A stretch of 64,000 bases of DNA, taken from NCBI GenBank assembly GCA_001972305.1, contig BDDD01002295.1, positions 36,634 through 100,633 of the forward strand. The letters run 5' to 3'. Position numbers and translations under genes: made by a program. The notes below the pieces were generated by a model. It saw only the letters and a list, made by a program, of their open reading frames with translations, was not told the DNA's origin and did not search any database. Below are positions 22,495 through 62,410 of this stretch, piece after piece; the first letter of the stretch is position 1; each line of letters starts with the position of its first letter. This stretch comes from Cephalotus follicularis (Eukaryota > Streptophyta > Magnoliopsida > Oxalidales > Cephalotaceae).

Positions 22495-22600
22495 TTCGTT
22501 GCCTATATGTTACGTTTTGTCGAATGTTATATGTTTTATGTATTTTTCAGACCATCTGAAATCGTTTTTGAATATGTGTTTTGTATTCTGGTCATTAAGC

Positions 22601-29458: not shown

Positions 29459-30822
29459 TGTCACACCCCATCGTTCAATACATTAGACAAGTATATATGG
29501 TGATATCAGGAATAAGCATAATAATAATATTCCAGCAATCTATTCAACAATTCATAAATAAATTTGCGGAAGCATTCAGTAATCCGGAATATAAATACAA
29601 GTCATCCGCACGCAGCCCATACTACATGCGGGTACATATCAACTCAATTATCCTTACACATAAGGAAGTACAATAGTAACACGGAGTGTGATCCGTTCGA
29701 TACAATACAATACATCATAAAAGAAAATAGCAACCTTAAGATGAATAACGGAAGCTCTCCAAGCTTCAGCAGCAACTCTGATCGTCTTCGCTTAATCTGA
29801 AATTGTAGGGGTTAGCCGTTGTCCTCACTTGGTTAAGTAGGAAGATAATGCATGCTAAGGAATATATGAATGCAACATGTATGACAGTTTATATTTAAAA
29901 TAACATTTAAATGTGCCAATATATAAGCAACCATGCCAAGTGGCCACAGACAATACATATGCAAGAATATCGCACAAGGGTACAATCAATTCAGCCTGGT
30001 TTGGGTGTCACATGTCGCTATCTCCTAGCTCCGACTGTGCACCACCTAACTATCACCCTACGCTCCGAAGATGATAGAACAGGTAACATTTACTACCGGC
30101 GTTGGCGGGTAGTTTAACAAATAAGATCTGTGACGCAGATAAGTTTGGGTGATACTCTGGCCAACTCCTGGCACCCAGGATCCCCACTGTAGTTGGTGAC
30201 CATCAGCCATCACTCGACTACCGGCAATAAGCATAGACAAACAATTCAAGAATTTCAATAATAATATTACATATATCAATAATATGCAATATAAAACTTG
30301 TTTTCTTTAGAAACATGTAACAAGTCATTTATCGTACATCTCATAGGAGGAAAACGATATCAATACGATAATGGTTCTCGATTGGAGAACAAACAGGTGG
30401 TACCTCTCATAGGAGGAAAATCAATAATTTCTTTAAACAATAGGTTTTCATTTGTAAATGATAGTTGATATCATAATTTGGTTACATAACCCATAGTTGG
30501 TTTCAATCATTGAAATATAAGTGGCAGTGGTGTTGAATAGCACCAAAATAGTATATACTAATATAAGGTAGCATATACAGTAACATCATAACAAGACAAT
30601 AGCAATTCAAGGATTCACAAGGAATAGCATTTCATAGTCGTTCATATGCAACTCTCACAAGGAGTGCGTACGTTGTTTAATTTTGAAATGTAATTGTATA
30701 TAAGGCCAAGATTGACTGTTCTAGTCATCCATATGGAGGCCAAGTTAATTACATTCAAAATTGAGGCCCAAACAGACCTATATCAGCATTTTTACCCAGG
30801 AAAGTTGGTTGTTCTCAAGAAC

Positions 30823-30915
30823 AGTAGGCTGTTTTGGTTGAGTAGTCAACTGTTTTGTCTTAACAGTCGACTGGATAGGGTTGAGTAGTCGACTGCCATG
30901 AAGAACAGTCGACTG
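30823..30915. repeat. Phased AGTCGACT array 1 in D 3' LTR
   Basis: Starts at 30823, 30844, 30865, 30887 and 30907 (steps 21, 21, 22, 20). The first two are decayed (AGTAGGCT, AGTCAACT). In the 5' LTR the same positions are mostly intact. Confidence 0.87.
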
Positions 30916-31973
30916 CTTCTACCCAGAAAATGCAGGCAGTAGTAGGTTGTAATTTTCAATCTCTAACACAAATCCAATCAATGCATGCAATCAAGCAGAA
31001 AATAAACATACATGATATGCATAATATATCTTCCATAAACATGTCATTACCCCTACCTCAATTGCTTATCCCAAGATCAATTGGAATTGATCTTTCTCTT
31101 TGAGTTTTCCAAGATTTTCACCAACCAATCCTTCAATCCAGTAGTATATAATCTATGTAGTGCATGCATGAAGGTTCAGTCATTAACCAGTAGGTTTGAC
31201 TAATTATCAGCTACAAACATTACTCCATAGTAGCTTATTAATAGTTCCTTAAGCATTAAACTTCAGTCTTACAATTTCCCTTTGAATTTTATGTCAAGTA
31301 GGTTTCAATTTCGGATTATTTGATCTTAACTTGTTGACAGAAGATGTGTATATATCAGTACGCTAATATCATGACAACTAACAACAATTATAATTCGAGC
31401 TAGAGTTGTTAACACCCCTCTAAGCCTTATGTCCATAATTCTTACTCCTTTTCATTACCATTTCTAATTTTAGAAGTTGTTAACCTTAAACCATGTTAAC
31501 AGAAGATATCTAACCCTCCTAGTTACATCATTAACCTTAGCAGTGAGCTCGAATTTAGAAACTTACCAAGAGAATCCAAGCTTCCAAGTCTTTCTTTAAC
31601 CTCTCCAAATCCTCAATGCAAGCTTCAATAATTTTTAGCAACTCTCCTCAACTTCAGTGTTTTTCTAACACACACACACACACATCTCTAACAGCTGATA
31701 TAAAGGTCTAGGAACCTCTGAATTCGCCAGGTTCTCACAACTCAGCTTCTCTCATTCCTTCTCTCACTCACATGCATTTCTCTTTCTCTCTTCTTTCTAT
31801 CTCTTTGTCACCTTTCTCTTCTTTCCATTCTGTTTTGCAGGTTGCAGAGAACATGCAAGCACTCTATTTTGCATGCTCTGGCAGCTACTGTCACGCGTGA
31901 CACTTTCCCCCCATGCAATGCCCCTTTGATCCATTCTCACAGGCATGCACAGACACATGTTCTGTACCGATCC

Positions 31974-32051
31974 AGTCGACTGTCTTTATCAGGCAGTCGA
32001 CTGTCCACACGCGCATCAGACAGTCGACTGTTGCCCTGTGACAGTCGGCTG
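31974..32051. repeat. Phased AGTCGACT array 2 in D 3' LTR
   Basis: Starts at 31974, 31995, 32022 and 32043 (steps 21, 27, 21), the mirror of the A array at 2351-2429. Confidence 0.87.
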
Positions 32052-35237: not shown

Positions 35238-36550
35238 TCAAGTATATGAAATGATCAGAGCAGTAACGTTCTTCTCTCCGATAAACTTGCACTCAGTCCC
35301 ATCCTGAAGGTAAAATGTCATCATCTTGTGGTAGCAATCAACACAAGTATGATGAGTATACAGCCAGTCCATCCCCAAGATTACATCAAAATCCTGGATA
35401 GGTAACACTATCAGGTCAGCAGATAATTGAATTCCAACTACCATGATCTCACAATCCTTCATAACAGTATCAGACAGAAGACAAGTACCCGAAGGAGTAC
35501 TCACCTCCAACACCTAAGGCAGTCTAGAAGTTACACCATGCAAATTGCGAGCAAATTCAGATGCAATGAATGAATGCGTCGCACCAGGGTCAATCAATAC
35601 ATGAGCTAGTATGCCAGATATATAAATAGTACCTCCCACAACAGTAGTAAATTCTGGTACATCATCTTTAGATAAGGTGTAGACCCTACCTTTCACAATC
35701 CCTTTTCCGGTGTCTCTCCGTGGTTGAGCCACCGCAACACTACCACTAGCGCAAGCACTTCCCTGTTGGCCGCGTGCTTGATCCCTCATCATTGGGCAAT
35801 TATTCATCATGTGATCCTGTGAACCACACCTCAAGCACTTTCCCATCTTCTTCTAGCATTCAGTCTCATCATGATTCGGATTACCACAAAAAGCACATCC
35901 ACTTGCATTCTGTTGACTGTTTCGGTTAGGTGTCCTTGATCATGTGCGTCGAGAACCTCCTTTACCTCTATTGTCAGACTTCGTTGACTTAGCAGGATTA
36001 TTACTTCCTTGCCCTTGCGTCTGTACGGCCCTCGATTGATTAGTACGAGTCCGTTCTGCCCTTCTCTCATTCGCGTCTGCTTCCAAAATAATCGCTCTCT
36101 CAGCAACATCTACAAAAGAAGTTAGCTGCAACATCAATAGCTTAGATCTGATGTCAGGTCGAACGCCTCTCATGAACCTTCGGATCATTCAGGATTCGCC
36201 CTCCACAAGATATGGTGTGTGTCTTGCCAGCTCCACAAATTTGGTATGGTACTAAGCTACCGTCATGTCTCCTTGACATAACTCCATCAATTCTGTCTCC
36301 CTTCGGTCCCGCTCAATCTGTGGCACATACGCCTCAAGAAACTCAGACTGGAATCGATCCCAAGTCCTGTCAAGTCCACGGGCTTCCCATTTCGCTTCAG
36401 TCCTTTCCCACCAGTAAGTAGCCTCGCCCCATAAGCGGTACACAGCAAAAATTAAGTCTCTGCTCATCGGTACACTCCAAAGCAGCAAATATTTTCTCCA
36501 AATCTCTAATCCATTGCTCGACCACAGTAGGATTCAGTTCACCATTGAAA
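35238..36550 (-). pseudogene. Element D gag-protease, 5'-truncated
   Basis: It starts inside the gag domain (KTFNGELNPTVVEQW) at the junction with the C LTR fragment. An extra T in a T-run near 36447 shifts the frame (NFCCVPL instead of NFAVYRLWGEA). Two CCHC knuckles are visible (CAFCGNPNHDETEC near 35890; CLRCGSQDHMMNNC at 35837-35796). The protease centre reads IDPGATHSF; Ser of the usual DSG is Pro. VILGMDWL follows. Stops: near 36252, near 36189, at 35940 (TGA), near 35847 (TAG), at 35514 and 35238. Confidence 0.9.
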
Positions 36551-36731
36551 GTTTTCAGATTATGTTTTAGATTCAGTTTATGTTTCATGATGATACACGT
36601 TTACAGGCTTTTAGAACCACCACGTATTGATGATGATTAAAGATTAAGATCTTGATATGTTTTAGTTCAGTTTGTGTGACACACCGATCCCGAAACGGGA
36701 GTGATCCCGGTTCCGAATCGGGGGTGTTACA
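36551..36731 (+). mobile_element. Element C: terminal 181 bp of the left LTR
   Basis: From GTTTTCAGATTATG to GGGGTGTTACA this is identical, as read by eye, to 42058-42238. The rest of the left LTR is gone and the break lies against D gag. AAAGTTTTC occurs at the break in both places, so a short shared sequence may have guided the joint. Confidence 0.88.
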
Positions 36732-38646: not shown

Positions 38647-39374
38647 TGTAACGCCCGGGATTTTCATTTATGTGTAATATTGCTTTCCAATGTAATTTTA
38701 CACCTTGTGTTAATGAGAATCGTGTTTTCCCTCTTCCCCGTGTTGAAAATGTTGCAAGAAAGTGTGTTGCTGTGTGTTTTTGTGCAGGGGCAGCCGACTA
38801 CCGTGAGGAGGCAGCCGACTGGTGGGAGTGTCGGCAGAAACAGCCGACTGCCAAGCGAGGCAGTCGACTGCCAGGCGCCAGACAGCCCACGTGTTTTCTG
38901 CCTTAAATGAGAAATGGGGGAGTGTTTTGTTATTTTTGGCTTTTGGCAGAAGGGGGGCCGGGAGTTTCACCATAAAAACACATGCTTCTCTACTGTTGCA
39001 GATTGATGCCGCGTTTTGGATATCGCCAAGCATGGCCGTATCGGACAGTGATGTGACGGAGTTTTCTGCTTTAAGTTTTGTAAAGCTTTGTAGCGAACAT
39101 GTTGTACTTTGGTTTATGTACTAATGTTTTGCTATTGTTGTTGTATCAACTTTGGATCATGCTCCGCTTGTGGGCTTTTTAACCATGTTTTACCGTGGAT
39201 GTTGTGGGAATCATACGGTATGGGACGCATGGTTCCGTGTGCTTTCAGCTTATATATGAATGCTTCCGCAAGATGATGTCTGTTTAAAAGTTTTAAATTT
39301 TATCGTTCTCTGTATAAGCTGGATATCTGTTAAATTGCCATGTTGTATGTTGTTAATGCAAGCGGGGTGTGACA
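38647..39374 (+). mobile_element. F element 5' LTR with 1.5-kb internal deletion
   Basis: It starts TGTAACGCCCGGG and ends GCGGGGTGTGACA. Compared with the solo F LTR (59844-62156) it lacks the part from about 60236 to 61770; the joint is at CTTCTC/TACTGTTGCAG near 38990. It retains the first GTCGAC-type array (38792-38892). Confidence 0.92.
38792..38892 (+). repeat. Phased AGCCGACT array in F 5' LTR
   Basis: Starts at 38792, 38813, 38842, 38862 and 38884 (steps 21, 29, 20, 22). Most units read AGCCGACT; one reads AGTCGACT. Confidence 0.85.
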
Positions 39375-40907: not shown

Positions 40908-42238
40908 GTTAAGCATGATTTTCACCTAAGGAAGTATGCTAAATTTTATGGTACAGATTTCATTATGAGCATGATTTTCAATTACGGAAATATGCAAAAT
41001 TTTTAAGATGTGATTTGGTTTTGTGAGTAAACCAATGTTTGGAAACGATTTTGATAAATCATATTTTTTGAAATACTGAGAATATATTGTTTCCTACCTA
41101 TGGAGGTACCATAGGCATGTCGTAGGCCTGGCACGGGGACATGACACTACCGTAGCAGTGTGTTTAGTCTACGGCGTCTCTTAATATCTTGTGATAGGAT
41201 ATGGCCAACTGAGGCGTATGGATCGATTCTAGTTTTTGACAGATACAGATTTTGGGATTGATTGTGTAGTGCCGTACACGTCATTCCGTTTGGCAAGTGG
41301 ATTCTGCAGGATCCCTTGCATATATGTATGTATTTAATTCGATATTGCATCTCTCAGTATAAGACATGGCATTTTGAAAAGTTTTGGGAAAGATATGCTT
41401 GATGTTTTCAAAGAATGAAACTTATGTTTCCAAAGCTTTCGTGTATGTTTTGAAAGTTTTCGTGTATGTTTTGAAAGTTAAGATCCGTTGTTTTGAAAAG
41501 GTACACTTTACGGTTTCAAGTTATGGACTTGTTTTATATATTTTGCCGAGGGCAATTGCAAAATAAGTTTAAACTGATTTATTGCTTAAGATTTCTGTTT
41601 TGAGTTAACTTTGAAATCTTACCGCTTTTATCGTTATCGTTATCGTTTACTGTTCATTTGGTTTTTTTTCCGAAATCTGTTTGTTTCAGATACTGTTTCG
41701 TTTTGGTAAACTGTTTTATTTCGGATACAGTTTTGGTTTCGTTCTGTTTTGTTTCGTAACTGTTTTGTTTTGTTTCGTAACCGTTCTGTTCTGATTCGTA
41801 TCTGTTTTGATTCATATTTATGTTGTTTCGTAATTTGATTTGTTTCATAAATTGTTTTATGATTCTATATCCGTACTGAGGTTTGCTCAGCCGCGTTTTT
41901 GTTTTCCATGCGGCGGGTTTACAGGGACAGTATGGGCAAGTGTGATGAGAGGGTTACCCTTTGTCAGAGGATCATCTAGGAGTTTGATCTGGTTATGTTT
42001 TTAGTGGTATTATGGTCGTGTATAGACCTAGTATTGTGATTTTTAATTTATGACAAAGTTTTCAGATTATGTTTTAGATTCAGTTTATGTTTCATGATGA
42101 TACACGTTTACAGGCTTTTAGAACCACCACGTATTGATGATGATTAAAGATTAAGATCTTGATATGTTTTAGTTCAGTTTGTGTGACACACCGATCCCGA
42201 AACGGGAGTGATCCCGGTTCCGAATCGGGGGTGTTACA
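40908..42238 (+). mobile_element. Element C right LTR, lacking its 5' part
   Basis: It begins mid-LTR in an AGCATGATTTTCA repeat and ends CGGGGGTGTTACA. It joins F protease on the left without target duplication, so F's 3' part and the C LTR start were lost together. It holds the four-stem block (41097-41913) and a TTTCGTAACTGTTTTG-rich stretch (41690-41860). Near the end TCCCGAAACGGGA (42196-42208) forms a perfect hairpin. The next base run, AAGAT, belongs to the D LTR. Confidence 0.88.
41097..41913 (+). promoter_or_regulatory. Four-stem block in C LTR
   Basis: HP1 41097-41115 (CCTATGG/CCATAGG); HP2 41150-41174 (CCGTAG/CTACGG); HP3 41264-41279 (GTGTA/TACAC); HP4 41891-41913 (CCGC/GCGG). Confidence 0.73.
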
Positions 42239-43198
42239 AAGATAATGCATGCTAAGGAATATATGAATGCAACATGTATGATAGTTTATATTTAAAATAA
42301 CATTTAAAGGTGCCAATATATACGCAACCATGCCAAGTGGCCATAGACAATACATATGCAAGAATACCGCACAAGGGTACAATCAATTCAGCCTAGTTTG
42401 GGTGTCACATGTCGCTATCTCCTAGCTCAGACTGCGCACCACCTATCTATCACCCTACACTCTGAAGATGATTGAACAGGTAACATTTACTACCGGCGTT
42501 GGCGGGTAGTTTAACAAATAAGATCTGCGATGCAGATAAGTTTGGGTGATACTCTGGCCAACTCCTGGCACCCAGGATTCCCACCGTAGTCGGTGACCAT
42601 CAGCCATCACTCGACTATCGGCAATAAGCATAGACAAACAATTCAAGCATTTCAATAATAATATTTCATATATCAATAATATGTAATATAAAAGTTGTTT
42701 TCTTTAGAAACATGTAACAAGTCATTTATCGTACATCTCATAGGAGGAAAACGATATCAATACGATAATGGTTCTCGTTGGAGAACAAACAGGTGGTACC
42801 TCTCACTGGAAGAAAATCAATAATTTCTTTAAACAATAGGTTTTCATTTGTAAATGATAGTTGATATCATAATTTGGTTACATAGCCCATAGTTGGTTTC
42901 AATCATTGAAATATAAGTGGCAGTGGTGTTGAATAGCACCAAAATAGTATATACTAATATAAGGTTGCATATACAGTAACATCATTACAAGATAGTAGCA
43001 ATTCAAGGATTCACAAGGAATAGCATTTCATAGTCATTCATATGCAACTCTCACAAGGAGTGCGTACGTTGTTTAATTTTGAAATGTAACTGTATATAAG
43101 GCCAGGATTGACTGTTCTAGTCATCCATATGGAGACCAAGTTAATTACATTCAAAATTGAGACCCAAACAGACCTATATCAGCATTTTTACCCACGAC

Positions 43199-43311
43199 AG
43201 TCGACTGTTCTCAAGAACGGTCGACTGTTTTGGTTGAGTAGTCGACTGTTTTGTCTTAACAGTCGACTGGATAGGGTTGAGTAGTCAACTGCCATGAAGA
43301 ACAGTCGACTG
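43199..43311. repeat. Phased AGTCGACT array 1 in D 5' LTR
   Basis: Starts at 43199, 43219, 43240, 43261, 43283 and 43303 (steps 20, 21, 21, 22, 20); five of six keep the core TCGACT. Confidence 0.9.
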
Positions 43312-44366
43312 CTTCTGGCCAGAAAATGCAGGCAGTAGCAGGTTGTAATTTTCAATCTCTAATACAAATCCAATCAATGCATGCAATCAAGCAGAAAAGA
43401 AACATACATGATATGCATAATATATCTTCCATAAACATGTCATTACCCCTACCTCAATTGCTTATCCCAAGATCAATTGGAATTGATCTTTCTCTTTGAG
43501 TTTTCCAAGATTTTCACCAACCAATCCTTCAATCCAGTAGTATATAATCAATGAAGTGCATGCATGAAGGTTCAGTCATTAACCAGTAGGTTTGACTAAT
43601 TATCAGCTACAAACATTACTCCAAAGTAGCTTATTAATAGTTCCTTAAGCATTAAACTTCAATCTTACAATTTCCCTTTGAATTATATGTCAAGTAAATT
43701 TCAATTTAGGATTATTTGATCTTAACTTGTTGACAGAAGATGTGTATATATCAGTACACTTATATCATGACAACTAACAACAATTATAATTCGAGCTAGA
43801 GTTGTTAACACCCCTCTAAGCCTTATGTCCATAATTCTTACTCCTTTTCATTACCATTTCTAATTATAGAAGATGTTAACCTTAAACCATGTTAACAGAA
43901 GATATCTAACCCTCCTAGTTACATCATTAACCTTAGCAGTGAGCTCGAATTTAGAAACTTACCAAGAGAATCCAAGCTTCCAAGTCTTTCTTTGAGCTCT
44001 CCAAATCCTCAATGCAAGCTTCAATAATTTTTAACAACTCTCCTCAACTTCAGTGTTTTTCTAACACTCACACACACATCTCTAACATCTGATATAAAGG
44101 TCTAGGAACCTCTGAATTCACCAGGTTCTCACAACTCAGCTTCTCTCATTCCTTTTCTCACTCACATGCATTTCTCTTTCTCTCTTCTTTCTATCTCTTT
44201 CTCACCTTTCTCTTCTTTACATTCTATTTTCCAGGTTGCAGAGAGAATGCAAGCACTCTATTTTGCATGCTCTGGCAGCTACTGTCATGCATGACACCTG
44301 CCCTATTGAAATGCCCCTTTGATCCATTCTCACAGGCATGCACAGTCACCTGTTCTGTACCAATCC

Positions 44367-44444
44367 AGTCGACTGTCTTTATCAGGCAGTTAACTGTCCA
44401 CACACGCATCAGACAGTCGACTGTTGCCCTGTGACAGTCGGCTG
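44367..44444. repeat. Phased AGTCGACT array 2 in D 5' LTR
   Basis: Starts at 44367, 44388, 44414 and 44436 (steps 21, 26, 22), as in the D 3' LTR. Confidence 0.87.
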
Positions 44445-45669
44445 TTTGAGCTGGTTTAGGGTTTCTTAAGTTTGACACTTCACCAATTGTACATCCATTC
44501 ATCTGAAGCATTGATGTACTACCCTGCTTACCTGTACGTATTTTTCTTACGGGTTTTATCTGTTTCGTATAAGTATTTGTCTATTTTATGTCGGGTTTAT
44601 GTTTTTGAGCTGACTGATACCAGTCTTAATTTTAGGTATATTGGTACGGATATTATGTTGGGTAAAATTTAGTTACATTATTATTATTATTATTACAAAC
44701 CACTTTTATCAAATGCTTAATTACCATATTATATTTACAAATGATTTTATTTAATTTTGTATTTTCAAAAATGGCTTTTAAAACAAAATCTTTTATTTTA
44801 TTACTTTCCTTCTTCTTCCCAAACACTCTCTCCCGTATCTCTCTTTCTCCAATCTCCCTCTCCCTCACAACTCTAATTCTTTCCTTCTTCTCACCCTCAA
44901 AATCAGCCTATATTCCTTATCCAGCAGATTGGTTTTTCCCTTTTTGCTATCCTTTCCTGTTTAGTCTCTTTTTGCTATATATGTATGCCAAAGCCATTGT
45001 CTCAGCCACCTCTCTTTGCTTGTGGTTGCTGTCGAACCTGCCATTGGAGAGTCATTGTGTTTTTGGTGTTCTTGCTTCATCAATCAGGTTAGTTTCTTCA
45101 TGGTTTCAATGTAGGAATCATTTTTGCAATGTTTGGTATAGTTGACAGGCTTTCAATTCTTGATATCTTCCTCTCGTTTTCCTTTTTGATCAGCCACTGT
45201 GTCCTCTGAATTGGTGTTTCTGCAACTATTTTTGACATCCATGAGGTTGGTTTCCTATGTTGTTATGTCTTGGTGATTGGTCTTGGATTGTTGCCATCAA
45301 ATTTTTGTACATTGGTTGCTAGAGATGGTTTTGTTGTGGTTTCGGCATTCTTGATGTTCTGTCAAATAAATACTTGGTTGTAACGATCTGTAGACACCTA
45401 GGAAACGTTATCTAATCTGGTTTTGATGCATGTGATCATCATAAATGGACAGAATTGGAGATATGCAATTGTATTTTATGGTTTAAAGTCCCTGTCACCT
45501 TAAATAATTTTTTGTCAACATGTCTCTATCGAATTCAGTGTTATAACATTGTTTTACATGCCATATAAAGTTGTTTTTAATGTTGGTAATCTTTTGGTGT
45601 CGAAAAATCTGAATCTTGGCTGCTAAGTTGCACAAAATTTCACTGAATTGTTGTTCTGTCACCCATAAC

Positions 45670-45835
45670 AGTCGACTGCCCATATGAACAGTCGACTGTC
45701 TTATATTGAGTAGTCGGCTGGACCCCTGATTCAATCGAATGATTGCATGTCCAGGTTGAGTAGTCGACTGGCCCTGTTGTGTAGTCGACTGCCACCCCTT
45801 GTTTAGTCGACTGGATTCTTGAAACAGTCGGCTGG
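45670..45835 (+). repeat. Phased AGTCGACT array in E 5' LTR, eight motifs
   Basis: The first motifs start at 45670 and 45690. The following steps match the 3' LTR (22, 21, 29, 21, 22, 21). Variants include AGTCGGCT and AATCGAAT. Confidence 0.9.
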
Positions 45836-46503
45836 ATTGTCCTGTAAACTTCTGTTTTCATCCGTTTGTTCTTCCAATGATCCGGGTCTATTGTAAACAT
45901 CATTAAGATTCTGTTTTATGTTCAAAATGAATTTTAGACCCTTATTTGAACATTGTTATGTTGTTTAGATTATTGTGCTACGTGAAGCAAATTAAGTTTA
46001 CCGGATATTCGTAAGTTAGTCTATGATCGCATAAGGTACGAATTTTCGTTCCTTGATAAACTCTTACTGATTCAGTTCTATGTTGAGAATAAATACAGAT
46101 TCTTTGTTTTGGTTTTATCTGAATTGAAACTGTTTTGTTTTAATGAGATCTACGGATATTTCCTTTGGACATCTGGTTAATTTGAAATAAATTCAGTTTT
46201 ATGAATATGCCCTTTTCAGATTATGAACTCCATTTTGTTTGGATTTTGAAATGAAGTCGGTTAGTATTTTATTGAATATATTTTCTGGCTTAATGAACTC
46301 CGCTATGATATGTTTATGAAATGCTATGCAAATGTCTCTTTGTGAAAATAAGAGAGTTGCATTTTGATTATGAAAGTATATGTGAAAATATATCGTTTGA
46401 GAACGATTTATGATTATGTTTTGGGAAACCTTTCTACGTGATTTAAATTGATTTGATGAAGTCAAAGTTTTTGAAATGGTGAAATACTGAGCTTTTATAA
46501 CCA

Positions 46504-47004
46504 CCTATGGGGGTACCATAGGCATGCTGTGAGCTGGCACGGGGGCATGACACTTTCCGTAACGGTGTGATTAGTTTACGACGTCTCTCTGGGATATCCT
46601 TGGATAGGATTTGTGATAGAGGTGTATGGATCGATCCTAGTTATATGTTTTGGGATATGTTTTGGGATATGAGAATTGTATGTGTAGTGCCGTACACTGC
46701 AATTCCATTTGGCAATGTGGGTGTCGCGAACCCGTTGCTACTATGTGTTTTTGATATGTTATGAGTTTTGGTGCTCAGTTATGCAACCTATGTTTTGGAA
46801 AGATATCCTTTATGGTTTCAAAGTTATGAACTTGGTTTATATGTTTTGCCGTGGGCATTTACAAAGTATGTTTAAATTATTTTATTGCTCAAGATTTCTG
46901 TTTTAAGGTACTTTTGAAATCTTCTTGCTTTAAAATACCGTTTACTGTTTTACATTCTATATCTGTACTGAGATTTGCTCAGCTGCATTTTTGTTTCCAT
47001 GCGG
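46504..47004 (+). promoter_or_regulatory. Four-stem block in E 5' LTR
   Basis: HP1 46504-46522 (CCTATGG/CCATAGG); HP2 46558-46580 (CGTAA/TTACG, a base-pair swap against CGTAG/CTACG in B and C); HP3 46673-46705 (GAATTG/CAATTC); HP4 46983-47004 (CTGC/GCGG with U-G). Confidence 0.75.
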
Positions 47005-47310
47005 CAGGTTATCAGGAGCGAAGGGGCAATGTGTGATGAGAGTGACTGCCCTACTATTGAGGATCATCTAGGAGCTGATCCCTTTATGTCTATGTGGTCA
47101 TAGTGGGACCCGTTTAATAAACAATATGTTAATTTCAGTTATGACTTTTGGAATATGAATAACTTTCAGTTTATGATCAGTTTCAGTATGTTTTGGATAT
47201 GCTTTAAACCATCATGTTTTTAATAAAGATGAACTTTTCTTTTATGATATGTTAAGTTTCTGTAATTTGCACCTGTGGAGACTCCCACAGCTCAGGGGTG
47301 TTACAGTTTA

Positions 47311-47321
47311 TGGTATCAGAG
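47311..47321 (+). promoter_or_regulatory. Primer-binding site of E
   Basis: TGGTATCAGAG, five bases after the LTR end. The conserved leader with ACCTAACTAGGT follows at about 47344-47355. Confidence 0.92.
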
Positions 47322-47473
47322 AATAGGCTTTGTTCCTTAGAAGACCTAACTAGGTTTGACCTGTGAGCTTGGGTAGACTTGGGTTAGGACTGTTATATTT
47401 TGGCCTTTCTGATATGTTTCTGTTTTGATTTTGTGTTTCGGTTTGATATCACGTGTTTCGGTTTCCTTCATAG

Positions 47474-48412
47474 ATGGTACGCACAAGAAACACTCCTCAG
47501 AGAACTGCACCAGCTGGGGCTCGAAATGAAGACAGAAATGAGCCTTATGTGGAAGAGTTGGTTCATCAAGCAGTTACTCAGGAAGTGAATCGTGTTATGC
47601 AACAACATAATCGGGAACAAGTTGTTGAGGAGAATGCTCCGGCCGAGGTTCAGAGGGATATGGAAACTGGGGATAGGCATGGCACACCTACTCATGGTTG
47701 GCTTGAGCGGTTTCAGAAACAGAGGCCGCAGTCTTTCAGTTTGGCTGTGACTCCTGTAGATGCCGAACACTGGGTAGCACATATGGAGAAGATCTTTAGT
47801 GTTCTGAGGTGTGATGATCAACAGAAGGTAAGTTTGGCGGCTTACAAACTCGAAGGGGATGCTCAGAAGTGGTGGGATACTCTGAATTTGGCTAAGGGTG
47901 AAGGTTATGCAGATGCTCTGTTATGGTCTGAGTTCCGGGATGTCTTCTATCAGCAGCATTTCCCCACTGCTGATAAGGAGGCCTATGCTAGAGAGTTTGT
48001 TAATACCAGGCAGAAGGATGGAGAAACAGTTTTGGAGTTCTTGGCCCGTTTCACTAGATTGGCTGGGTTTGCTGGATCCGCGGCGGGGTCAGCATCAGAG
48101 CAAGCTGAAAAGTTCAAGTGGAAGCTGCATTACCAGTTTAGGGGAAAGCTAATCAACTCCAAGTTTGCGGATGTAGCTGAAGTTGCTAATGCCGCGAAAA
48201 ACATTGAGCTGGAGAGATTGGACTTCCAGGCAGCACACCAGGAGGGGGATAAAAAGCGGTATAGGAGTGAACAAGATTCTGGACAACAGAGCAAGGGTCA
48301 CGGCAGTTCATGGAACAGGGGTAGAGGAGGCAAACAACATAAGAAGGATCACAAGCAGAATAAAGATAGTAATCAACAGCGACAACAAGGAAATGATCAG
48401 AAGAACGCATAG
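47474..48412 (+). pseudogene. Element E gag, ended early by TAG
   Basis: The 312-codon frame starts at an ATG directly after TTCCTTCATAG. It begins MVRTRNTPQRTAP. The gag domain spans about residues 75-220 (LERFQKQRPQSF, AEHWVAHMEKIF, AQKWWDTLN, VFYQQHFPTADKE). A basic Gln/Lys/Arg-rich stretch follows. The TAG at 48410-48412 lies where B reads CAG and the same frame continues downstream into the zinc knuckle, so this is a C-to-T nonsense change. Natural stop read-through cannot be ruled out. Confidence 0.92.
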
Positions 48413-49135
48413 GGAGCTGATGGGGGTAACCCCGATGTTCAGATTGCTAGATGTGATGCTTGTGGTAGGTATTATCCAGTCGGTACCTGTTATAAAGTCA
48501 GTGGGGTCTGTTTTGTATGTGGACAGATGGGACACTTCGCGAAGGATTGTCAGGATCCTCGTGCTATGGAAAGGAAGGGTAATGGTGCGAATGCTAGGCA
48601 GCGCAACGTGGGAGGCCGAGTCTTTGCAATTACGACTCATCAGGAAGCTAATGCTCCAGGTACGGTTTCAGGTTTTATTTCTGTTTGTAACCGTAGAGCT
48701 TATGTGTTATATGATACTGGATCGACGCACTCGGTTGTAGCGAGATCTTTTGTTCGGCATCTTGGAATGCCTTCGCAGTTGTTTGATCCTGCTTTGGTTC
48801 TTTCTACCCCTATGGGGACATCCGTTGTGATATCTGAGTGTTTTTATGCTTGCCCTATTGTTTTTGATGATCGGATTTGTGATGCGGATCTCTTTCCTAT
48901 GGATATGTATGATTTTGATGTTATTCTGGGTATGGATTGGTTAGAGCATCATCGGGCTACGATTGATTGTCATGCTCGGAGGATTCTGTTCGGAGAAGTG
49001 GATCGACCTGATTTTATTTATCAGGGTTTGCGGCCTATGAAAGATGTTAAGATCATATATGTTATGAAAGCTCAGAAGTTAGTAGCTAAGGGCGCCAAAG
49101 GGTTTCTAGCTGTTGTAAAGGATGTCGCCTTGAAG
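48413..49135 (+). pseudogene. Element E zinc knuckle and protease
   Basis: Same frame as gag. A Cys-rich stretch near 48450-48490 (CDACGRYYPVGTC) is followed by a perfect CCHC knuckle (CFVCGQMGHFAKDC near 48510-48550). The protease has GRVFAITTHQEANAPG, the centre LYDTGSTHSVVA (near 48708) and VILGMDWL. Relative to B, 16 bases are missing near 49126, so the frame drifts into meaningless sequence ending at 49294. RT continues in another frame. Confidence 0.9.
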
Positions 49136-52032
49136 ATTATCCTGTGGTTAGAGAGTTTTCTTATTTGTTTCCAGAGGAGTTACCGGGTTTGCCACCACAA
49201 CGGGAAGTGGAGTTTACCATTGAACTCATTCCTGGGGCGGCACCTATATCTAAAGCACCGTATAGGATGGCACCGCTTGAGTTACAAGAGCTGAAGGAGC
49301 AGTTGGAAGAGCTGTTAGATCCGGGTTTTATCCGGCCGACTGTTTCGCCGTGGGGAGCTCTGGTTTTGTTTGTGAAGAAGAAAGACGGATCTATGAGACT
49401 GTGTATTGACTATAGAGAACTGAATCGGATCACTATTCGTAATAAATACCCTTTGCCTAGGATTGATGACCTATTTGATCAACTCCAAGGTGCACGGTAT
49501 TTTTCTAAGATCGATTTAAGGTCTGGGTATCATCAGTTGCGGATAAAAGATGAGGATGTGCCTAAGACCGCTTTTCGCACACGGTATGGGCATTATGAAT
49601 TTCCGGTGATGCCGTTTGGGATTACGAATGCACCGGCAGTTCTCATGGACCTTATGAATCGGGTTTTTCATGAATTTTTGGATCGGTTTGTGATTGTGTT
49701 CATCGATGATATTCTTGTGTATTCGAAATAAAAGGAAGAACATGAAGATCAACTTCGTATAGTGCTTGGTATTTTGAGGAAGAATCAGCTATACGCAAAG
49801 TTCTCTAAATGTGAGTTCTGGTTGGAACAGGTGGCGTTTTTAGGCCATGTGGTTATAGCGGAAGGGATTACTGTGGATCCTACTAAGGTTGAAGCTATTA
49901 CTAAATGGGCGAGACCTACTACAGTATCGGAGGTTAGGAGCTTTTTTGGTTTAGCTGGTTACTATAGGCGGTTCGTGGAAGGCTTCTCCTCCATAGCCTT
50001 GCCACTGACTCAGCTTATGAGGAAGGGAGCAAAGTTTGTGTGGAATGATGAACGGGAGGCAAGTTTCGAGAAACTGAAGAACGGTCTTGTGTCTGCACCG
50101 ATTCTTCGTTTACCATCTGGGTCAGGAAGATACCAGATTTATAGTGATGCTTCTAAAAAGGGTTTGGGTTATGTTCTGATGCAGCATGGTCATGTGATAG
50201 CATATGCTTCGAGACAGTTGAAGCCTTACGAGTTGAATTACCCTACACATGATCTCGAGTTAGCGGCAGTTGTGTTTGCGTTAAAGATTTGGAGGCACTA
50301 CTTGTATGGAGAAACTTGTGACGTCTTTATCGATCATAAGAGTCTCAAGTACATCTTCACGGAAAAGGAGTTGAATATGCGTCAGAGGCGTTGGTTAGAG
50401 CTCCTGAAGGATTACGATCTGAATATTCAGTACCACCCTGGTAAGGCGAACGTGGTAGCTGATGCTCTGAGTAGGAAGAGTTATGGGAGTGTGGCGGCTT
50501 TGGTTACTCAGTCGCATTTGATAGCAGATATGGAGCGATTGGATTTGAATCTATTTGTTCGGGGTTCAGATGGATATATGGTTGGCATGTCTATGGAGCC
50601 TACCCATATATCTCGAATTAAGGCAGCTCAGAGTGATGACGGCGAGCTTTGGGCCTTGGTTTAGAATTTTGAGAAGGGTAAGCAGTTAGAGTTTCATGTG
50701 GATGAGCATGGAGTGATCTGGTTGGGTAGTCAGTTGTGTGTTCTGGTAGATACTTCTATCAGAAATGCTGTTTTGTCTGAAGCACATAGTTCTCCGTTCT
50801 CTGTTCATCCGGGTTCTACAAAAATGTACAGAGACTTAAAGGAAAATTTCTGGTGGAACGGAATGAAGAGGGATGTAGCCGAGTTTGTCGGAAAATGTTT
50901 GGTCTGTCATCAGGTTAAGATCGAACACCAGCGAGCTAGCGGTTTGTTACAGCCCTTGGAAGTTCCAGTTTGGAAATGGGACAGTATTGCGATGGATTTT
51001 GTTACAGGTTTGCCGAGAACATACAGGAGAAACGATGCTATTTGGGTTGTGGTGGATCGGTTGACCAAATCAGCTCACTTCTTGGCAATCCGAGAGGACT
51101 TCTCTGTGGATCGTTTGGCGGAGGTTTTCCAGCGGGATATTGTGAGACTTCATGGGACTCCTGTATCTATTGTTTCGGATAGGGATCCCCGTTTCACTTC
51201 ACGGTTTTGGAAAGGGTTTCAGAAAGCTTGGGGTACGAGGCTAAATTTTAGTACAGCTTTCCATCCACAGACAGATGGGCAGACAGAGAGGACCATTCAG
51301 ACCTTAGAAGATATGTTGAGGTCTTGTGCTTTGGAATGGACTGGGAACTGGGATGAGTATCTGAGTCTAGTGAAGCTCGCCTACAATAACAGTTGGCATG
51401 ATAGTATTCGTACGGCTCCGTTTGAAGCTCTTTATGGGAGGAAATGTCGAGCTCTGACATGCTGGGATGAAGTCGGAGAAAGAGTTATCGAAGGACCAGA
51501 GCTAGTACGAATCACTAATGAGAAAGTAGCTATAGCAAGGGAGAGGTTGAAGACAACTCAATCTCGACAGAAAAGTTATGCGGATAAACATCAAAAGGAT
51601 TTGGAGTTCAAAGTAGGTGAACATGTGTTCTTAAAAGTTTCACCTTGGAAAGGCGTCCGACGGTTTGGACTAAAGGGGAAGTTGAGTCCTCGGTTTATAG
51701 GACCATTTGAAATTTTTGAGAGGGTTGGCGCAGTTACGTATCGGTTAGCTTTGCCTCCACAGTTATCTCATGTTCATGATGTGTTCCATGTGTCCTTGTT
51801 AAGGGGTTATCAGTATCATCCCCTACACGTGGTCCACTATCCTTTGGACAACATTCGGGAGGATTTATCTTATGACGAGGAGGCGGAGGCTATTCTAGAT
51901 CTAAAGGAACGGGTTACGCGTAGCAAGACCGTTCCGTTTGTGAAAGTGTTATGGAGGAACCATCCCGAACGTGAGGCTACTTGGGAGATGGAGGAGCACA
52001 TTCGGGAACGATACCCTCGTTTTTTCGTTTAA
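49136..52032 (+). pseudogene. Element E pol: RT, RNase H, integrase, chromodomain-like tail
   Basis: One frame with two stops: TAA 49729-49731 just after the RT catalytic [10 protein letters not shown], and TAG 50662-50664 where B has CAG. RT also has [11 protein letters not shown]. RNase [34 protein letters not shown]. Integrase: [31 protein letters not shown], and [13 protein letters not shown] with the catalytic Glu, 35 residues after the second Asp. The tail has IGPFEIF, then LKERVTRSKTVPF, EREATWEMEEH and RFFV before TAA. It is the most intact pol in the window. Confidence 0.93.
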
Positions 52033-52071
52033 GGTATGTGTATGTTAAGATTTCGGGACGAAATCTTCTTT

Positions 52072-52085
52072 TTAGGGGGGGTGGA
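52072..52085 (+). promoter_or_regulatory. Polypurine tract of E
   Basis: AGGGGGGGTGGA directly before TGTAATACCCTG, after the 3' UTR signature TTTCGGGACGAAATC. Confidence 0.9.
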
Positions 52086-53240
52086 TGTAATACCCTGATT
52101 ACCTGTACGAATTTTTCTTACGGGTTTTATCTATTTAGTTTAAGTATTTGTCTGTTTTATGTCAGGTTTATGTTTTTGGGCTGACTGATACCAGCCTTAA
52201 TTCTGGGCATGTTGGTACGGATATTATGTTGGGTAAAATTTAGTTACATTATTATTATTATTATTACAAACCACTTTTATCAAATACTTAATTACCATAT
52301 TATATTTACAAATGATTTTATTTAATTTTGTATTTTCAAAAATTTCTTTTAAAACAAAATCTTTTATTTTATTACTTTCCTTCTTCTTCCCAAACACTCT
52401 CTCCCGTATCTCTCTTTCTCCAATCTCCCTCTCCTTCACAACTCTAATTCTTTCCTTCTTCTCACCCCAAAAATCAGCCTATATTCCTTATCCAGCAGAT
52501 TGGTTTTTCCCTTTTTGCTATCCTTTCCCGTTTGGTCTATTTTCACTATATATGTATGCCAAAGCCATTGTGTCAGCCACCTCTCTTTGCTTGTGGTTGC
52601 TGTCGAACCTGCCATTGGAGAGTCATTGTGTTTTTGGTGTTCTTGCTTCATCAATCAGGTTAGTTTCTTCATGGTTTCAATGTAGGAATCGTTTTTGAAA
52701 TGTTTGGTATAGTTGACAGGCTTTGAATTCTTGATATCTTCCTCTCGTTTTCCTTTTTGATCAGCCACTGTGTCCTCGGAATTGGTGTTTCTGCAACTAT
52801 TTTTGACATCCATCAGGTTGGTTCCCTATGTTGTTACGTCTTGGTGATTGGTGTTGGATTGTTGCCATCAAATTTTTGTACATTGGTTGCTAGAGATGGT
52901 TTTGTTGTGGTTTCAGCATTCTTGATGTTCTGTCAAGTAAATCCTTGGTTCTAACGATCTATAGACACCTAGGAAATGTTATGTAATCTGGTTTTGATGC
53001 ATGTGATCATCATAAATGGACAGAATTGGAGCTATGCAATTGTATGTTATGGTTTAAAGTCCCTGTCACCTTAAATAATTTTCTGTCAACATGTCTCTGT
53101 CGAATTCAGTGTTATAACATTGTTTTACATGCCATATAAAGTTGTTTTTAATGTTGGTAATCTTCTGGTGTCGAAAAATCCGAGTCTTGGCTGCTAAGTT
53201 GCACAAAATTTCACTGAATTGTTGTTCTGTCACCCAGAAC

Positions 53241-53405
53241 AGTCGACTGCCCATATGAACAGTCGACTGTCTTATATTGAGTAGTCGGCTGGACCCCTGA
53301 TTCAGTCGAATGCTTGCATGTCCAGGTTGAGTAGTCGACTGGCCCTGTTGTGTAGTCGACTGCCACCCCTTGTTTAGTCGACTGGATTCTTGAAACAGTC
53401 GGCTG
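53241..53405 (+). repeat. Phased AGTCGACT array in E 3' LTR, eight motifs
   Basis: Starts at 53241, 53261, 53283, 53304, 53333, 53354, 53376 and 53397 (steps 20, 22, 21, 29, 21, 22, 21). The plan equals that of B, although the LTR 5' parts of B and E differ. Confidence 0.92.
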
Positions 53406-54077
53406 GATTGTCCTGTAAACTTCTGTTTTCATCCGTTTGTTCTTCCAATGATCCGGGTCTATTGTAAACATCATTAAGATTCTGTTTTATGTTCAAAATG
53501 AATTTTAGACCCTTATTTGAACATTGTTATGTTGTTTAGATTATTGTGCTACGTGAAGCAAATTAAGTTTACCGGATATTCGTAAGTGAGTTTGTGATCG
53601 CATAAGGTACGGATTTTCGTTCCTTGATAAACTCTTACTGATTCAGTTCTATGTTGAGAATAAATTAAAATTCTTTGTTTTGGTTTTATCTGAATTGAAA
53701 CTATTTTGTTTTAATGAGATGTACGGATATTTCCTTTGGACATTTGGTTAATTTGAAATAAATTCAGTTTTATGAATATGCCCTTTTCAGATTATGAACT
53801 CCGTTTTGTTTGGATTTTGAAATGAAGTCAGTTAATATTTTATTGAATATATTTTATAGCTTAATGAACTCCGCTATGATATGTTTATGAAATGCTATGC
53901 AAATGTCTCTTTATTGTGAAAATAAAAGTGTTGCATTTTGATTATAAAAGTATATGTGAAAATATATCGTTTGAAAACGATTTATGATTATGTTTTGGGA
54001 AACCTTTCTACGTGATTTAAATTGATTTGATGAAATCAAAGTTTTTGAAATGGTGAAATACTGAGCTTTTATAACCA

Positions 54078-54567
54078 CCTATGGGGGTACCATAGGCATG
54101 CTGTGACCCTGGCACAGGGGCATGACACTTTCCGTAACGGTGTGATTAGTTTACGGCGTCTCTCTGGGATATCCTTGGATAGGATTTGTGATAGAGGCGT
54201 ATGGATCGATCCTAGTTATATGTTTTGGGATATGTTTTGGGATATGGGAATTGTATGTGTAGTGCCGTACACTACAATTCCATTTGGCAAGAACCCCTTG
54301 TTACTATATGTTTCTGATATGTTATGGGTTTTGGTGCTCAGTTATGGAACCTATGTTTTTGAAAGGTATACTTTATGGTTTCAAAGTTATGAACTTGGTT
54401 TATATGTTTTGCCGTGGGCATTTATAAAGTATGTTTAAATTATTTTATTGCTCAAGATTTCTGTTTTAAGGTACTTTTGAAATCTTCTTGCTTTAAAATA
54501 CCATTTACTGTTTTACATTCTATATCTGTACTGAGGTTTGCTCAGCCGCATTTTTGTTTCCATGCGG
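54078..54567 (+). promoter_or_regulatory. Four-stem block in E 3' LTR
   Basis: HP1 54078-54096; HP2 54132-54156 (CCGTAA/TTACGG); HP3 54247-54281 (GGAATTGTA/TACAATTCC around TGTGTA/TACAC); HP4 54546-54567 (CCGC/GCGG). Confidence 0.75.
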
Positions 54568-54868
54568 CAGGTTATAAGGAGCAAAGGGACAATGTGTGAT
54601 GAGAGTGACTTACCTATGTCTGAGGATCATCTAGGAGCTGATCCCTTTATGTTTATGTGGTCATAGTGGGACCCGTTTAATAAACAATATGTTGATTTCA
54701 GTTATGACTTTTGGATTATGAATATGTTTTAGTTTATGATCAGTTTCAGTATGTTTTGGATATGCTTTAAACCGTGACGTTTTTAATAAAGATGAACTTT
54801 TCTTTTATGATATGTTAAGTTTCTGTAATTTGCACCTGTGGCGACTCCCATAGCTCGGGGGTGTTACA

Positions 54869-57893: not shown

Positions 57894-59843
57894 TTTAATA
57901 TCCCAGTTCGTTGCCTATATGTTACGTTTTGTCGGATGTTATATGTGTTTTGTATTCTGATTTTTACTTCTTTGTTTGAAACGCTTTCTACTCATACGGA
58001 AGGCGTTAATTCACCAAATTTTATCATTCAAAATACATGTTTTGCATTAAACCTCATATTGCATCTTTTTAAAGTCCCATTATCTGCACATTTTATGAAA
58101 CCAACACAGTCAATTGTCTCCTTCATCCTGCATCATTTTTGGTGTCAACTGAAGGTACTTTCTGAATGAAAGTCTTAGTTTTTGTCATAGATTTTTGTTA
58201 TTAATCATTAGTTTGTACTAAAACAAGATAAAAACTCCTTTTGATCATGAAACATGGAAGCCTGCTTTGAAATAAGATTTCTGCCATATTCAATCTGTAT
58301 ATCCATGAATTTATGTGTTTAAATTGTTATACTTGTATCTTGTATTCATAAAAGTCATGTTTTAGCATATGCATGTTACTGTTTCATGATTTGTACGATG
58401 ATATTGGATTATAGTTCATGCTTTTGGTAAAATACTACAACTGTTTTCATGTTCTCGACGTAAAGCGTCGATGCCTATTCCGTAAGCGTCGATGCCTGTG
58501 TGTATAAAATCTGTTTTGAACGCCATGGATGTGTCTAAGCGTCGACTATTTCGTTTTTACCGTTGACGCTTATGCCTAAACCGTTGACGCCTTTCATTGA
58601 GCGTCGACGCTTATGTCGTAAAGTGTTATAATGTTTTTGTCGACACTTGATCCGCATTTTGGTTAAAGTTGTGTTGAAACCGTCGACGCCTTATGTTAAG
58701 CGTCGACACTTCTGTCATGCATGTCGACGGCTTTGTCCTTAACGTCGATGCTTTCGTCTGGCAGTTTGTGGTTTTGTGTCTTTCATTTTGTAATTCGTTT
58801 TGGTTGGTATGTTAGGGTTCCCAAAGCATCTGTTGTGACGTATAGGGTGATTTTGTACGTGTCTTTGATTCATTTTTGTTATTGTTGGGTTTGAACGGCT
58901 AAGGTACGGATTTCTTGTCCTTGATTATACTCCTTGGATTTTATTGGAATAAAACCTATTTGTGTTTTATGAATATGTACGAATTCTCCTTTCTTTGGTT
59001 TCTCTACCGGTTTTATTGAAATAAATTCGGATTATGTTTTTAGTACGAATGTCTTCCTTTTGATTAAATCCCTTTGGTTTTATTGTAATAAATCCTATTT
59101 ATGCATTTATGAATAAGTGTACAGATAATTCTTTCATTTATTACTCTATTATTGGTTTTTATTGGAGATTGGTTTTTGAATAACGTACAGATATTTCGTC
59201 TTTGATTTTCCCATTCCGATTTTATTGAAATTATTTCAGTTTTTGCTTTTGATAAAATAAGTATGGATAATTCGTTCTTGACACTATTCCTCTGATTTCA
59301 TTTGGAATAAGCTCTGTTTTACTGTTAAATGAATAAAGTACGGATTTTTTCATTCTGGGATATCTTAGGATTTTATTGAAATGATTTCAGTTGTGCTTTT
59401 AAGTACGGATTCTTCGTTTTGGCTATCATTTGGTTTTATTTGAATAAATTCAATTTTATTACTTTTATGAATAAAGTTGAATGCCCTGCTTTTATAAATT
59501 CAATTTTGATGGATTAAATGCTGATTTTATAATTATCATCTCTTTTAATTAATTGTCAAAATTAAATGAGCATGACTTTCAATTACGAAAGTTTGTTGAG
59601 CTTTTTGAATGAGCATGACTTTCAATTTCGAAAGTATGTTGATATTTTTTAAATGAGCATGACTTTCAATTACGAATGTATGATGATGTTTTTACTGATA
59701 TGATTATGATTTCGGATTTTGTTCGGAAATATTGTATATGTGTTTTGAAATGATTTTGGAGTAAATCATTATTTTTGCATACTGAGAATATACCTACCTA
59801 TGGGGATTCCATAGGCGTGTTCTTTGGAACGGAGGACATGACT
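57894..59843 (+). mobile_element. Element G 3' LTR, first part
   Basis: It follows the 5' LTR from TTCGTTGCC on, without the extra motif-bearing section of the 5' copy. It holds the CGTCGACGC array (58455-58750), TACGGAT/TTTTATT units (58905-59420), the triple hairpin (59570-59690) and HP1 at 59797-59815 (CCTATGGGGATTCCATAGG). It is split by the solo F LTR. Confidence 0.88.
58455..58750 (+). repeat. Phased CGTCGACG array in G 3' LTR
   Basis: Core positions (T of TCGA or TTGA) at 58455, 58468, 58489, 58542, 58563, 58584, 58604, 58640, 58683, 58703, 58724 and 58745. Seven steps are 20-21 bp; two others are near 2x or 2.5x 21. GTTGAC and GTCGAT forms look like CpG decay. Confidence 0.87.
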
Positions 59844-59987
59844 GTAACGCCCGGGATTTTCATTTATGTGTAATATTGCTTTTCCAATGTAATTTTACAC
59901 CTTGTGTTAATGAGAATCGTGTTTTCCCTCTTTCCCGTGTTGAAATGTTGCAAGAAAGTGTGTTGTTGTGTGTTTTTGTGCAGGGGC

Positions 59988-60117
59988 AGCCGACTGCCAC
60001 AGGGAGGCAGCCGAGTAGACCCTTGCTGAGGCATGGCAGCCAGCTGCCGAGAGGAGGCAGCTGGCTGGTGGGAGTGTCTGCAGAAACAGCCGACTGCCAA
60101 GCCAAGGCAGTCGACTG
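59988..60117 (+). repeat. Phased AGCCGACT array 1 in solo F LTR
   Basis: Starts at 59988, 60009, 60038, 60059, 60088 and 60109 with alternating steps 21, 29, 21, 29, 21. Confidence 0.87.
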
Positions 60118-60647
60118 CCATGTGCCAGACAGCCCACGTGCTGTCTGCCTTAAGTGGAAAAAGGAGGAGTGTTTTGGATTTATTGGAAATGGCAGAGGAG
60201 GGGCCGTGGGTTTCTCCTTAAAACACAACATTTCTCTCCTCTTTCTCCATCATTCTCTGTGATTTCAAGAGATTTCTTGTGAGTTTGAGAGTGGAAGTGT
60301 GTGTGTGTTGAGGCTACGGAGCTTGTGTGTTGGAACCGTGAAGTTCGAAGGCTTGACAGTGGGAGTTCGGGCCTGTTGAAGGTGGCTGGTCGTGTTGGGG
60401 TTGCAAGAGCTTCGGATTTAGACTTAAAGAGGTGGATTGCAACTCCTAACTTGGAGTTCTAACGTAGGGGGAAGTCGTTTTTGCAACATAATTTCAATTG
60501 ACAATGTTTTTGGATGAAATAAAATGCATGTTTATGTTATATTGTGAGTTTGGAACGTGTATGTGCATAAATATGTCATTTTGGGTTATGTTGGGTGTGT
60601 GTTTGTGGCTGTTTTAGCATCTGGTTTTTACACCTGCTACAGAATCC

Positions 60648-60955
60648 AGCCGACTGCCCACCTCGGACAGTCGACTGCCAACGGGTCCAGCCGACTGTTC
60701 TAGGGAGGCCAGTCGACTGCCCACTTTCGTTTTCAAAAAATGTCTGCAGAGGTTGTGTAGTCGACTGTTGTAGGTCAACAGCCGACTGTGGGGGTGTGGA
60801 CAGCCGACTGTCAGGGATGACAGCCGACTGTCGAGTGTGGGCAGCCGACTGTCTTGGTAGACAGTTGACTGTCTAGTTATATAGCCGACTGCCTGGGTCT
60901 GGCAGCAGACTACTTTGAGGGGGACAACCGACTGACAAGGGTGGGCAGCCGACTG
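60648..60955 (+). repeat. Phased AGCCGACT array 2 in solo F LTR
   Basis: The longest array here, 14 motifs: 60648, 60669, 60689, 60711, then 60759, 60780, 60802, 60822, 60843, 60863, 60883, 60904, 60926 and 60947. All steps within the two runs are 20-22 bp. AGCCGACT dominates, with AGTCGACT, AGTTGACT, AGCAGACT and AACCGACT variants. Confidence 0.92.

Positions 60956-62344: not shown

Positions 62345-62410
<66 letters not shown>

Follow-up and report, generated by a model that had tools for sequence, protein, structure and literature searches.

The closest known systems to the arrays described here are the LTR palindromes of Sireviruses, which are copia elements, and the targets of VANC proteins in VANDAL elements, and neither fits as a family. 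As described for the Sirevirus RM boxes, many copies of an element-specific palindrome around a shared CGG-CCG core gather within a single part of the LTR, slightly upstream of a promoter region, and the boxes are called Sirevirus-specific and described as lacking in other copia elements (PMC2829016). In VANDALs, the tandem repeats contain short motifs to which VANC proteins bind (PMC5735166, PMC10398659). Rice Retrosat2 has a long LTR (U3 1–244, R 245–2266, U5 to 3292; PMC3485330), and sunflower Tekay elements have a chromodomain integrase, with a 5′ extra ORF in group 2 (PMC11728184); the word 'palindrom' is absent from the main texts of both papers. Among the matches listed in a literature search of titles and abstract beginnings, with subscription papers mostly outside its scope, none reported palindrome arrays in Ty3/gypsy LTRs.

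The window, that is, the whole 64-kb stretch of Cephalotus follicularis DNA analysed here, contains nested Ty3/gypsy retrotransposons. Element E (44515–54868, plus strand) is bounded by LTRs at 44515–47305 and 52086–54868, which are 95.4% identical in a blastn match. Its stop-interrupted frames match Retrotrans_gag, RVP_2, RVT_1, RT_RNaseH, and Integrase_H2C2, with matches to rve and Chromo at E-values of about 1e-5, below the Pfam cut-offs. The order, gag-PR-RT-RH-INT-chromodomain, is that of Ty3, whereas the Sirevirus boxes belong to copia elements (PMC2829016). Element E contains no extra frame of at least 200 aa beyond gag-pol, and differs in this from sunflower group 2 with its extra ORF (PMC11728184) and from VANDALs, which encode the binder (PMC5735166, PMC10398659). 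The closest proteins (best 120 of 8000) were retroelement proteins of Asteraceae (Tanacetum, Mikania, and Smallanthus), many at 75–79%, a likeness that taken by itself would suggest a daisy-family host. Tekay LTRs are long, start like TGTAAYRCC, end like GGTGTNACA, and come with a primer site for the initiator Met tRNA. The same start, end, and primer-site traits are found here, with 1 mismatch in 12 in the primer site of element E and LTR lengths of 2.6–2.8 kb in A, B, and E, long as in rice Retrosat2 (PMC3485330). Judged by sequence, the carriers in the window appear to be Ty3/gypsy chromoviruses with Tekay-like LTRs.

The palindrome GTCGAC occurs 70 times in the window, against a mean of 6.5 and a maximum of 12 in 100 dinucleotide shuffles, and 27 adjacent steps measure 20–22 bp, against 0 in the same number of shuffles, confirming the original prediction of GTCGAC runs with this step. 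No other of the 64 six-base palindromes is as over-represented: GTCGAC reaches 10.7-fold in the window and 5.4-fold across 200 kb of loci placed blindly. When 8- and 10-base palindromes were scanned without regard to motif, the excess at 20–22 and 27–28 bp was gone once words with a GTCGAC core were omitted, and no other palindrome with the same step was prominent in the window or in 20 blind loci. The arrays and the Sirevirus boxes share a high-copy palindrome in the LTR, and the Vitis box CGGTCGACCG contains GTCGAC, but the shared core of the boxes is CGG-CCG and not GTCGAC (PMC2829016). VANDALs likewise have a dense short motif in noncoding transposon DNA that differs between related elements; their motif, YAGTATTAY, is however non-palindromic and in a single orientation (PMC5735166, PMC10398659).

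In the 3′ LTR of element E, the array at 53240–53405 (plus strand; offset 1155–1320) contains eight units in two blocks of four, each CAGTCGACTG with 0–2 mismatches, at steps of 20, 22, 21, 29, 21, 22, and 21 bp; its twin at the matching place in the 5′ LTR (45669–45834, plus strand) has one unit more decayed. The B 3′ LTR (18670–21284) has eight units at 19725–19888 (plus strand; offset 1056–1219) with steps of 20, 21, 22, 28, 21, 21, and 21 bp, and the steps read in both arrays uphold the eight-unit plan proposed for B and E, with its one long step (28–29 bp) at the same place. A truncated copy of the B array lies at 13763–13863 in an internally deleted 5′ LTR (12708–13907). Family A has a 2+2-unit array near the LTR start (2350–2428, plus strand; steps 21, 27, and 21) and a six-unit array at 3444–3555 (plus strand) in the LTR at 2178–4857; minus-strand copies are found at 31973–32051 and 44366–44444 for the first array and at 30822–30915 and 43198–43311 for the second. 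Array 1 of family H (59987–60117, plus strand) is a chain including weak units with steps of 21, 29, 21, 29, and 21 bp, and is repeated with steps of 21, 29, and 20 bp at 38791–38870 in a truncated LTR (38647–39374). The longest run had been given as 14 motifs at 60648–60955; 13 of these are within 2 mismatches of CAGTCGACTG, mostly CAGCCGACTG, and the position near 60903 is degenerate. This second H array (60647–60955, plus strand; offset 805–1113 in the LTR starting at 59843) includes one 48-bp step.

The claim that every well-covered LTR family carries the GTCGAC palindrome stands for the core and the step, but not for a single palindrome, with families G/I and F carrying AGCGTCGACGCT-like (class II) units around the same GTCGAC core and at the same step as the CAGTCGACTG class (class I). 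The G class II array occupies 23320–23608 (plus strand; steps mainly 20–21) and has a homologous copy in I at 58464–58752; an earlier G array lies at 22598–22748, and the F class II array at 5134–5304 (plus strand) has steps of 21, 79, 20, 21, and 21 bp. A half-hybrid array of AGCGTCGACTTT-type units at 10022–10242 shows three successive 21-bp steps in its better part, and lies beyond a minus-strand primer site at 7378. The window contains 42 class II units vs. 4 in the reversed sequence, with 18 of 25 steps at 19–21 bp; the pattern is looser in the 20 blind loci (57 units vs. 26 reversed; 7 of 19 steps at 20–21 bp). Pairs of CGTCGACG at steps of 10–40 bp number 22,834 in the whole genome vs. 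65 for the control, and 38 of the 50 places listed have steps of 19–22 bp. Six of the 20 blind loci contain CAGTCGACTG-type words, six others class II words, and none both. The gag of the G element is 49% identical to that of E over 227 residues, so the palindrome was swapped among related elements. Four of the six class I loci (L008, L011, L022, and L025) have pol more than 50% like that of E or A, one (L019) has shorter pol matches at 40–51%, and one (L007) has none. Four loci with distant pol matches only (L014, L018, L020, and L010) have no class I unit; L023 has pol 57% like that of E, yet its 10 kb lacks class I units, which speaks against a strict pol-motif rule.

The A and H LTRs have two arrays each, one near the start (offset about 145–275) and one inner (805–1401), the B and E LTRs only the inner array (1056–1320), and the G LTR two arrays, by eye. 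In B and E, a TATA-like site (19462 and 44975, respectively) precedes the arrays, and the first arrays of A and H are near the LTR start. Because steps of 20, 22, and 28 bp break the frame and every sense frame of the four arrays that were read is interrupted by stops, the suggestion of coding ancestry, based on 21 bp being divisible by three and equal to seven codons, is rejected as hardly credible; the arrays moreover sit in LTRs. One antisense frame is open in each of the B and H2 arrays, among the same four.

Genome-wide, exact AGTCGACT pairs at steps of 10–40 bp number 133,397 in the 1.577-Gb assembly vs. 417 for the reversed-pattern control. Step 21 alone accounts for 68,822 (control 199), steps 23–26 together for 750 (control 1), steps 10–19 together for 4,040 (control 22), and steps 20, 22, and 27–40 for about 59,800 by subtraction. 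The genome-wide search for a 21-bp peak, proposed as a check of the original prediction, was thus carried out and returned a strong one. The first 100 pairs listed, all on contig C1, have steps of 20 (21 pairs), 21 (55), 22 (9), 27 (3), and 28 bp (9), with one each at 13, 19, and 33. From the genome step counts and these first pairs, the spacing has two peaks, at 21 and about 28 bp. The 20 blind loci, which were placed by contig number and blind to content, gave the following 56 adjacent steps of 10–40 bp with no step preference applied: 19 (1), 20 (10), 21 (34), 22 (4), 28 (6), and 29 (1). Many of the step 10–19 pairs among the matches listed belong to an unrelated step-13 repeat; the pair AGTCGACTCGCTGAGTCGACT recurs in the genome (e.g., contig C1 172866–172886), apparently as a separate repeat that contains the motif.

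The window and loci L007–L046, which include a separate set of 20 loci chosen from pattern matches, have 60 arrays of at least three units. Chaining with favoured steps of 19–23 and 27–29 bp, in which weak units were accepted to fill chains, gave 54 chains; nine had a negative-scoring unit and were dropped, leaving 45, or 37 after removal of copies more than 85% alike; identical chaining on the reversed sequence gave 9 chains. The 37 non-redundant clean arrays have steps of 19 (1), 20 (40), 21 (102), 22 (19), 23 (2), 27 (4), 28 (16), and 29 bp (7). Split at the long linkers, they yield blocks of 2 (26), 3 (1), 4 (23), 5 (3), and 6 units (11), and 60 of 64 blocks are even-sized vs. a mean of 30.8 and a maximum of 48 for random linker placement (5000 draws), a count that leans on filled-in weak units. 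The effective number of blocks is smaller, because many arrays are related and some units weak. Among clean arrays, blocks are even in 18 of 18 cases in the blind loci and in 19 of 22 in the window, all copies counted. Steps within pairs are tighter (20–22 bp, 112 steps) than steps from pair to pair within one block (19–23 bp, 52 steps). The strict 21- (28-) bp step, the even blocks, and the polarity described below set these arrays apart from the Sirevirus boxes, for which the section describing them gives no spacing rule (PMC2829016). The second step of 27–29 bp, the mostly even blocks, a family-dependent flip of polarity, and a sister palindrome with shared core and step are new features here. 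Twelve-unit arrays of three blocks of four with 28–29-bp linkers were seen at L044 227–484 and L008 3481–3739. The long B/E linker (27–29 bp; e.g., 53313–53331) contains a TGCA...GGTTGAG sequence that by eye is partly conserved across several families and is perhaps a further site.

Adjacent spacers within arrays have an identity of 0.329 (94 pairs), vs. 0.322 between unrelated arrays and 0.292 after shuffling, and 3 of the 94 adjacent pairs reach 0.7 identity vs. 0.9% of background pairs. Spacers alignable between units had been named as the sign of a recent minisatellite; since spacers within an array barely exceed the identity of unrelated ones, neighbours are not alignable as copies and a recent minisatellite is ruled out. 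Spacers four units apart are more alike (0.416, 47 pairs), which points to some array growth by old duplication of four-unit blocks. Together with the mean of 0.353 over all within-array spacer pairs, the plans shared by homologous arrays, and a 41-bp period in the H array, this likeness also favours an ancient tandem duplication whose spacers have decayed and whose spacing is merely inherited. Such decay should affect the motif, and above all its CpG, as it does the spacers; between families it does not, and one step is shared by two distinct palindromes and by arrays whose flanks are not homologous. An old minisatellite is on this evidence a very doubtful explanation.

Motif identity in three sets of homologous LTR segments (12, 13, and 11 sequences) is 0.86, 0.82, and 0.94, against 0.57, 0.61, and 0.60 for spacers and 0.61, 0.63, and 0.63 for flanks, with members found by motif and step, which favours the motif-conservation and indel results. 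Indels within the arrays, which were picked with a step preference, are of 1 bp or of at least 10 bp, and the flanks show most sizes. A flank-only search of the window and the 20 blind loci, in which the motif was not required, gave 12 homologous placements. In all nine flank-anchored placements whose spacers are at most 0.83 identical, conservation is higher in the motif than in the spacers (for example, 0.94 vs. 0.79 and 0.92 vs. 0.63). In the three youngest pairs (spacers 0.97–1.0) the motif is equal or worse, with 2 of 5 motif CpGs left in one, as decay following insertion would predict. The flank-anchored placements show what appears to be the pattern of selection on active copies followed by decay after insertion.

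Silenced plant DNA normally loses its CpGs quickly. Ordered between-family comparisons show retention of the motif CpG in 87–92% of cases and of other CpGs in the same alignments in 17–46%, in an analysis that took arrays found by their motifs; the array counts are not independent, because the arrays are related by descent. The well-kept CpG, and the existence of family-specific motif forms around one core, are also what a contest over silencing would produce, in which DNA methylation would be drawn to or kept away from the regularly stepped symmetric CG and CHG sites (CAG-CG-CTG), or in which a sequence-specific anti-silencing factor would target the arrays in the way that VANC targets VANDAL repeats; the VANC target motifs are short and lie in tandem repeats that diverge rapidly (PMC5735166, PMC10398659). 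We consider this explanation unlikely: element E lacks a further frame that could be such a factor at the 200-aa threshold, and the VANC repeats evolve together as whole units (PMC5735166, PMC10398659), whereas neighbouring spacers here are hardly more related than those of different arrays. By analogy, the arrays could work like Sirevirus boxes or VANC targets, although defining features of both, when tested, were not found.

The motif tolerates T in place of C at the first base and G in place of A at the seventh, or the corresponding mirror pair. The sense strand of the B/E group (113 units) carries 46 T0 and 25 G6 vs. 6 A9 and 6 C3. Array 2 of family A (71 units) is reversed, with 3 T0 and 3 G6 vs. 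21 and 18 for the mirror pair A9 and C3; H1 (10 units; C3 8, G6 2, A9 2) leans like A array 2, and A1 (46 units) does so only by C3 (7 vs. 1 G6). Because the tolerated variants are one-sided, with the side differing by family, the arrays have polarity, which is opposite between families while the motif stays. No compensation was found between half-sites or between neighbouring units for each other's changes. Base preferences extend beyond the palindrome: of 230 oriented units, one has A at +1, none has G at +2, and 17 have T as the base before the palindrome, with purines favoured before CAGTCGACTG and pyrimidines after it. Core variants, with C at the fourth or G at the seventh base, make up 14% of units. 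The DREB/CBF (AP2) site is (G/a)(C/t)CGAC, and we take its GYCGAC form to match the tolerated variants GTCGAC and GCCGAC. AP2 proteins bind as monomers, and overlapping inverted DREB/CBF sites could presumably not both be filled. Among the papers listed in a literature search, none was decisive on AP2/DREB as the binder, which is kept as a possible lead.

The even block sizes (60 of 64 in the 37 arrays) could also reflect pairing at the RNA level, with adjacent palindromes forming hairpins of the LTR transcript that serve as small-RNA precursors or as a structured leader RNA. In maize, the LTR palindromes of Sireviruses are termed hotspots of sRNA mapping (PMC5311732), the changes tolerated in the BE group (T0 and G6) preserve G-U pairs in the sense strand, and inward stem extension within pairs is 0.522 vs. 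0.440 in a test that ignores relatedness. Hairpins would account for the even blocks, but leave unexplained both the lack of compensation and the reversal of polarity in A and H. Double changes that compensate each other in partner units show no excess (9 vs. 12.9 expected), and the changes tolerated in A2, H1, and A1 (C3 vs. G6) break sense-RNA pairing. Stem extension is inconsistent slot by slot and below expectation within A1 pairs, and outward and self extension gave null results. Folding against shuffled spacers has a mean z of −0.9 over the 37 arrays, with E and B about zero or positive and H1 at −2 to −3. Folding of the RNA may make a weak contribution; as an explanation of the arrays it is quite improbable.

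Taken together, we think the arrays are probably selected binding-site arrays for a putative dimeric DNA-binding protein, serving as cis-acting control elements of Tekay-like Ty3/gypsy chromoviruses. Each unit, CAGTCGACTG or its sister AGCGTCGACGCT, would be a two-fold symmetrical site for a dimeric sequence-specific protein. A host origin is most likely for this protein, given that no spare gene was seen in element E. Pairs of sites separated by two helical turns are probably the working module; their repetition gives two, four, or six sites per block, with blocks joined by the 27–29-bp linker and placed near the LTR start and/or deeper in the LTR. Since variants occur without compensation between half-sites or units, the arrays would be read as double-stranded DNA, by a dimer whose two halves differ, on sites paired two turns apart, possibly cooperatively and with an effect on transcription, insulation, or silencing. 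Against this reading, the 27–29-bp linker puts blocks out of helical phase, the arrays share descent, spacers four units apart retain some likeness, the motif is no better kept in the three youngest pairs, the indel contrast draws on arrays chosen with a step preference, L023 has E-like pol but lacks class I units, and class II steps in the blind loci are loose. The original interpretation as sites for a bound protein is supported in part, in that a motif kept without its spacers and the exclusion of bases beyond the palindrome fit it; the binder itself is putative. It had also placed all palindromes on one face of the helix, which agrees with the steps of 20–22 bp (two turns) inside blocks but fails across them, where successive blocks would be rotated, because the 27–29-bp linker makes about 2.7 turns.

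A more elaborate possibility, which we regard as speculative and rather improbable, is a spacing-coded nucleoprotein system, by analogy with co-evolving anti-silencing systems. Palindromes paired at 21 bp, with 21 or about 28 bp from one pair to the next, would scaffold a polarised protein assembly, and families among related elements would swap the outer bases (CAGTCGACTG to AGCGTCGACGCT) and keep the core and the step, each answering its own factor.

If the arrays are binding sites, palindrome arrays known from Sireviruses among copia elements would extend to Ty3/gypsy chromoviruses, with a stricter grammar. The strict step, the even blocks, and the one-sided variants allow the binder's properties to be predicted precisely, and with about 133,000 exact AGTCGACT pairs any reader of the motif would have a very large target set. 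The arrays are thus a possible handle on the control of abundant plant LTRs.

Other features of the window were noted alongside the arrays. Two 184-bp stretches at 36548–36731 and 42055–42238, ending at LTR ends, are identical, which points to a recent insertion into an otherwise older nest of elements. Short tandem repeats that include a CTCCTCGGAC word lie at 24387–24500, and a perfect (AT)30 run at 62348–62407.
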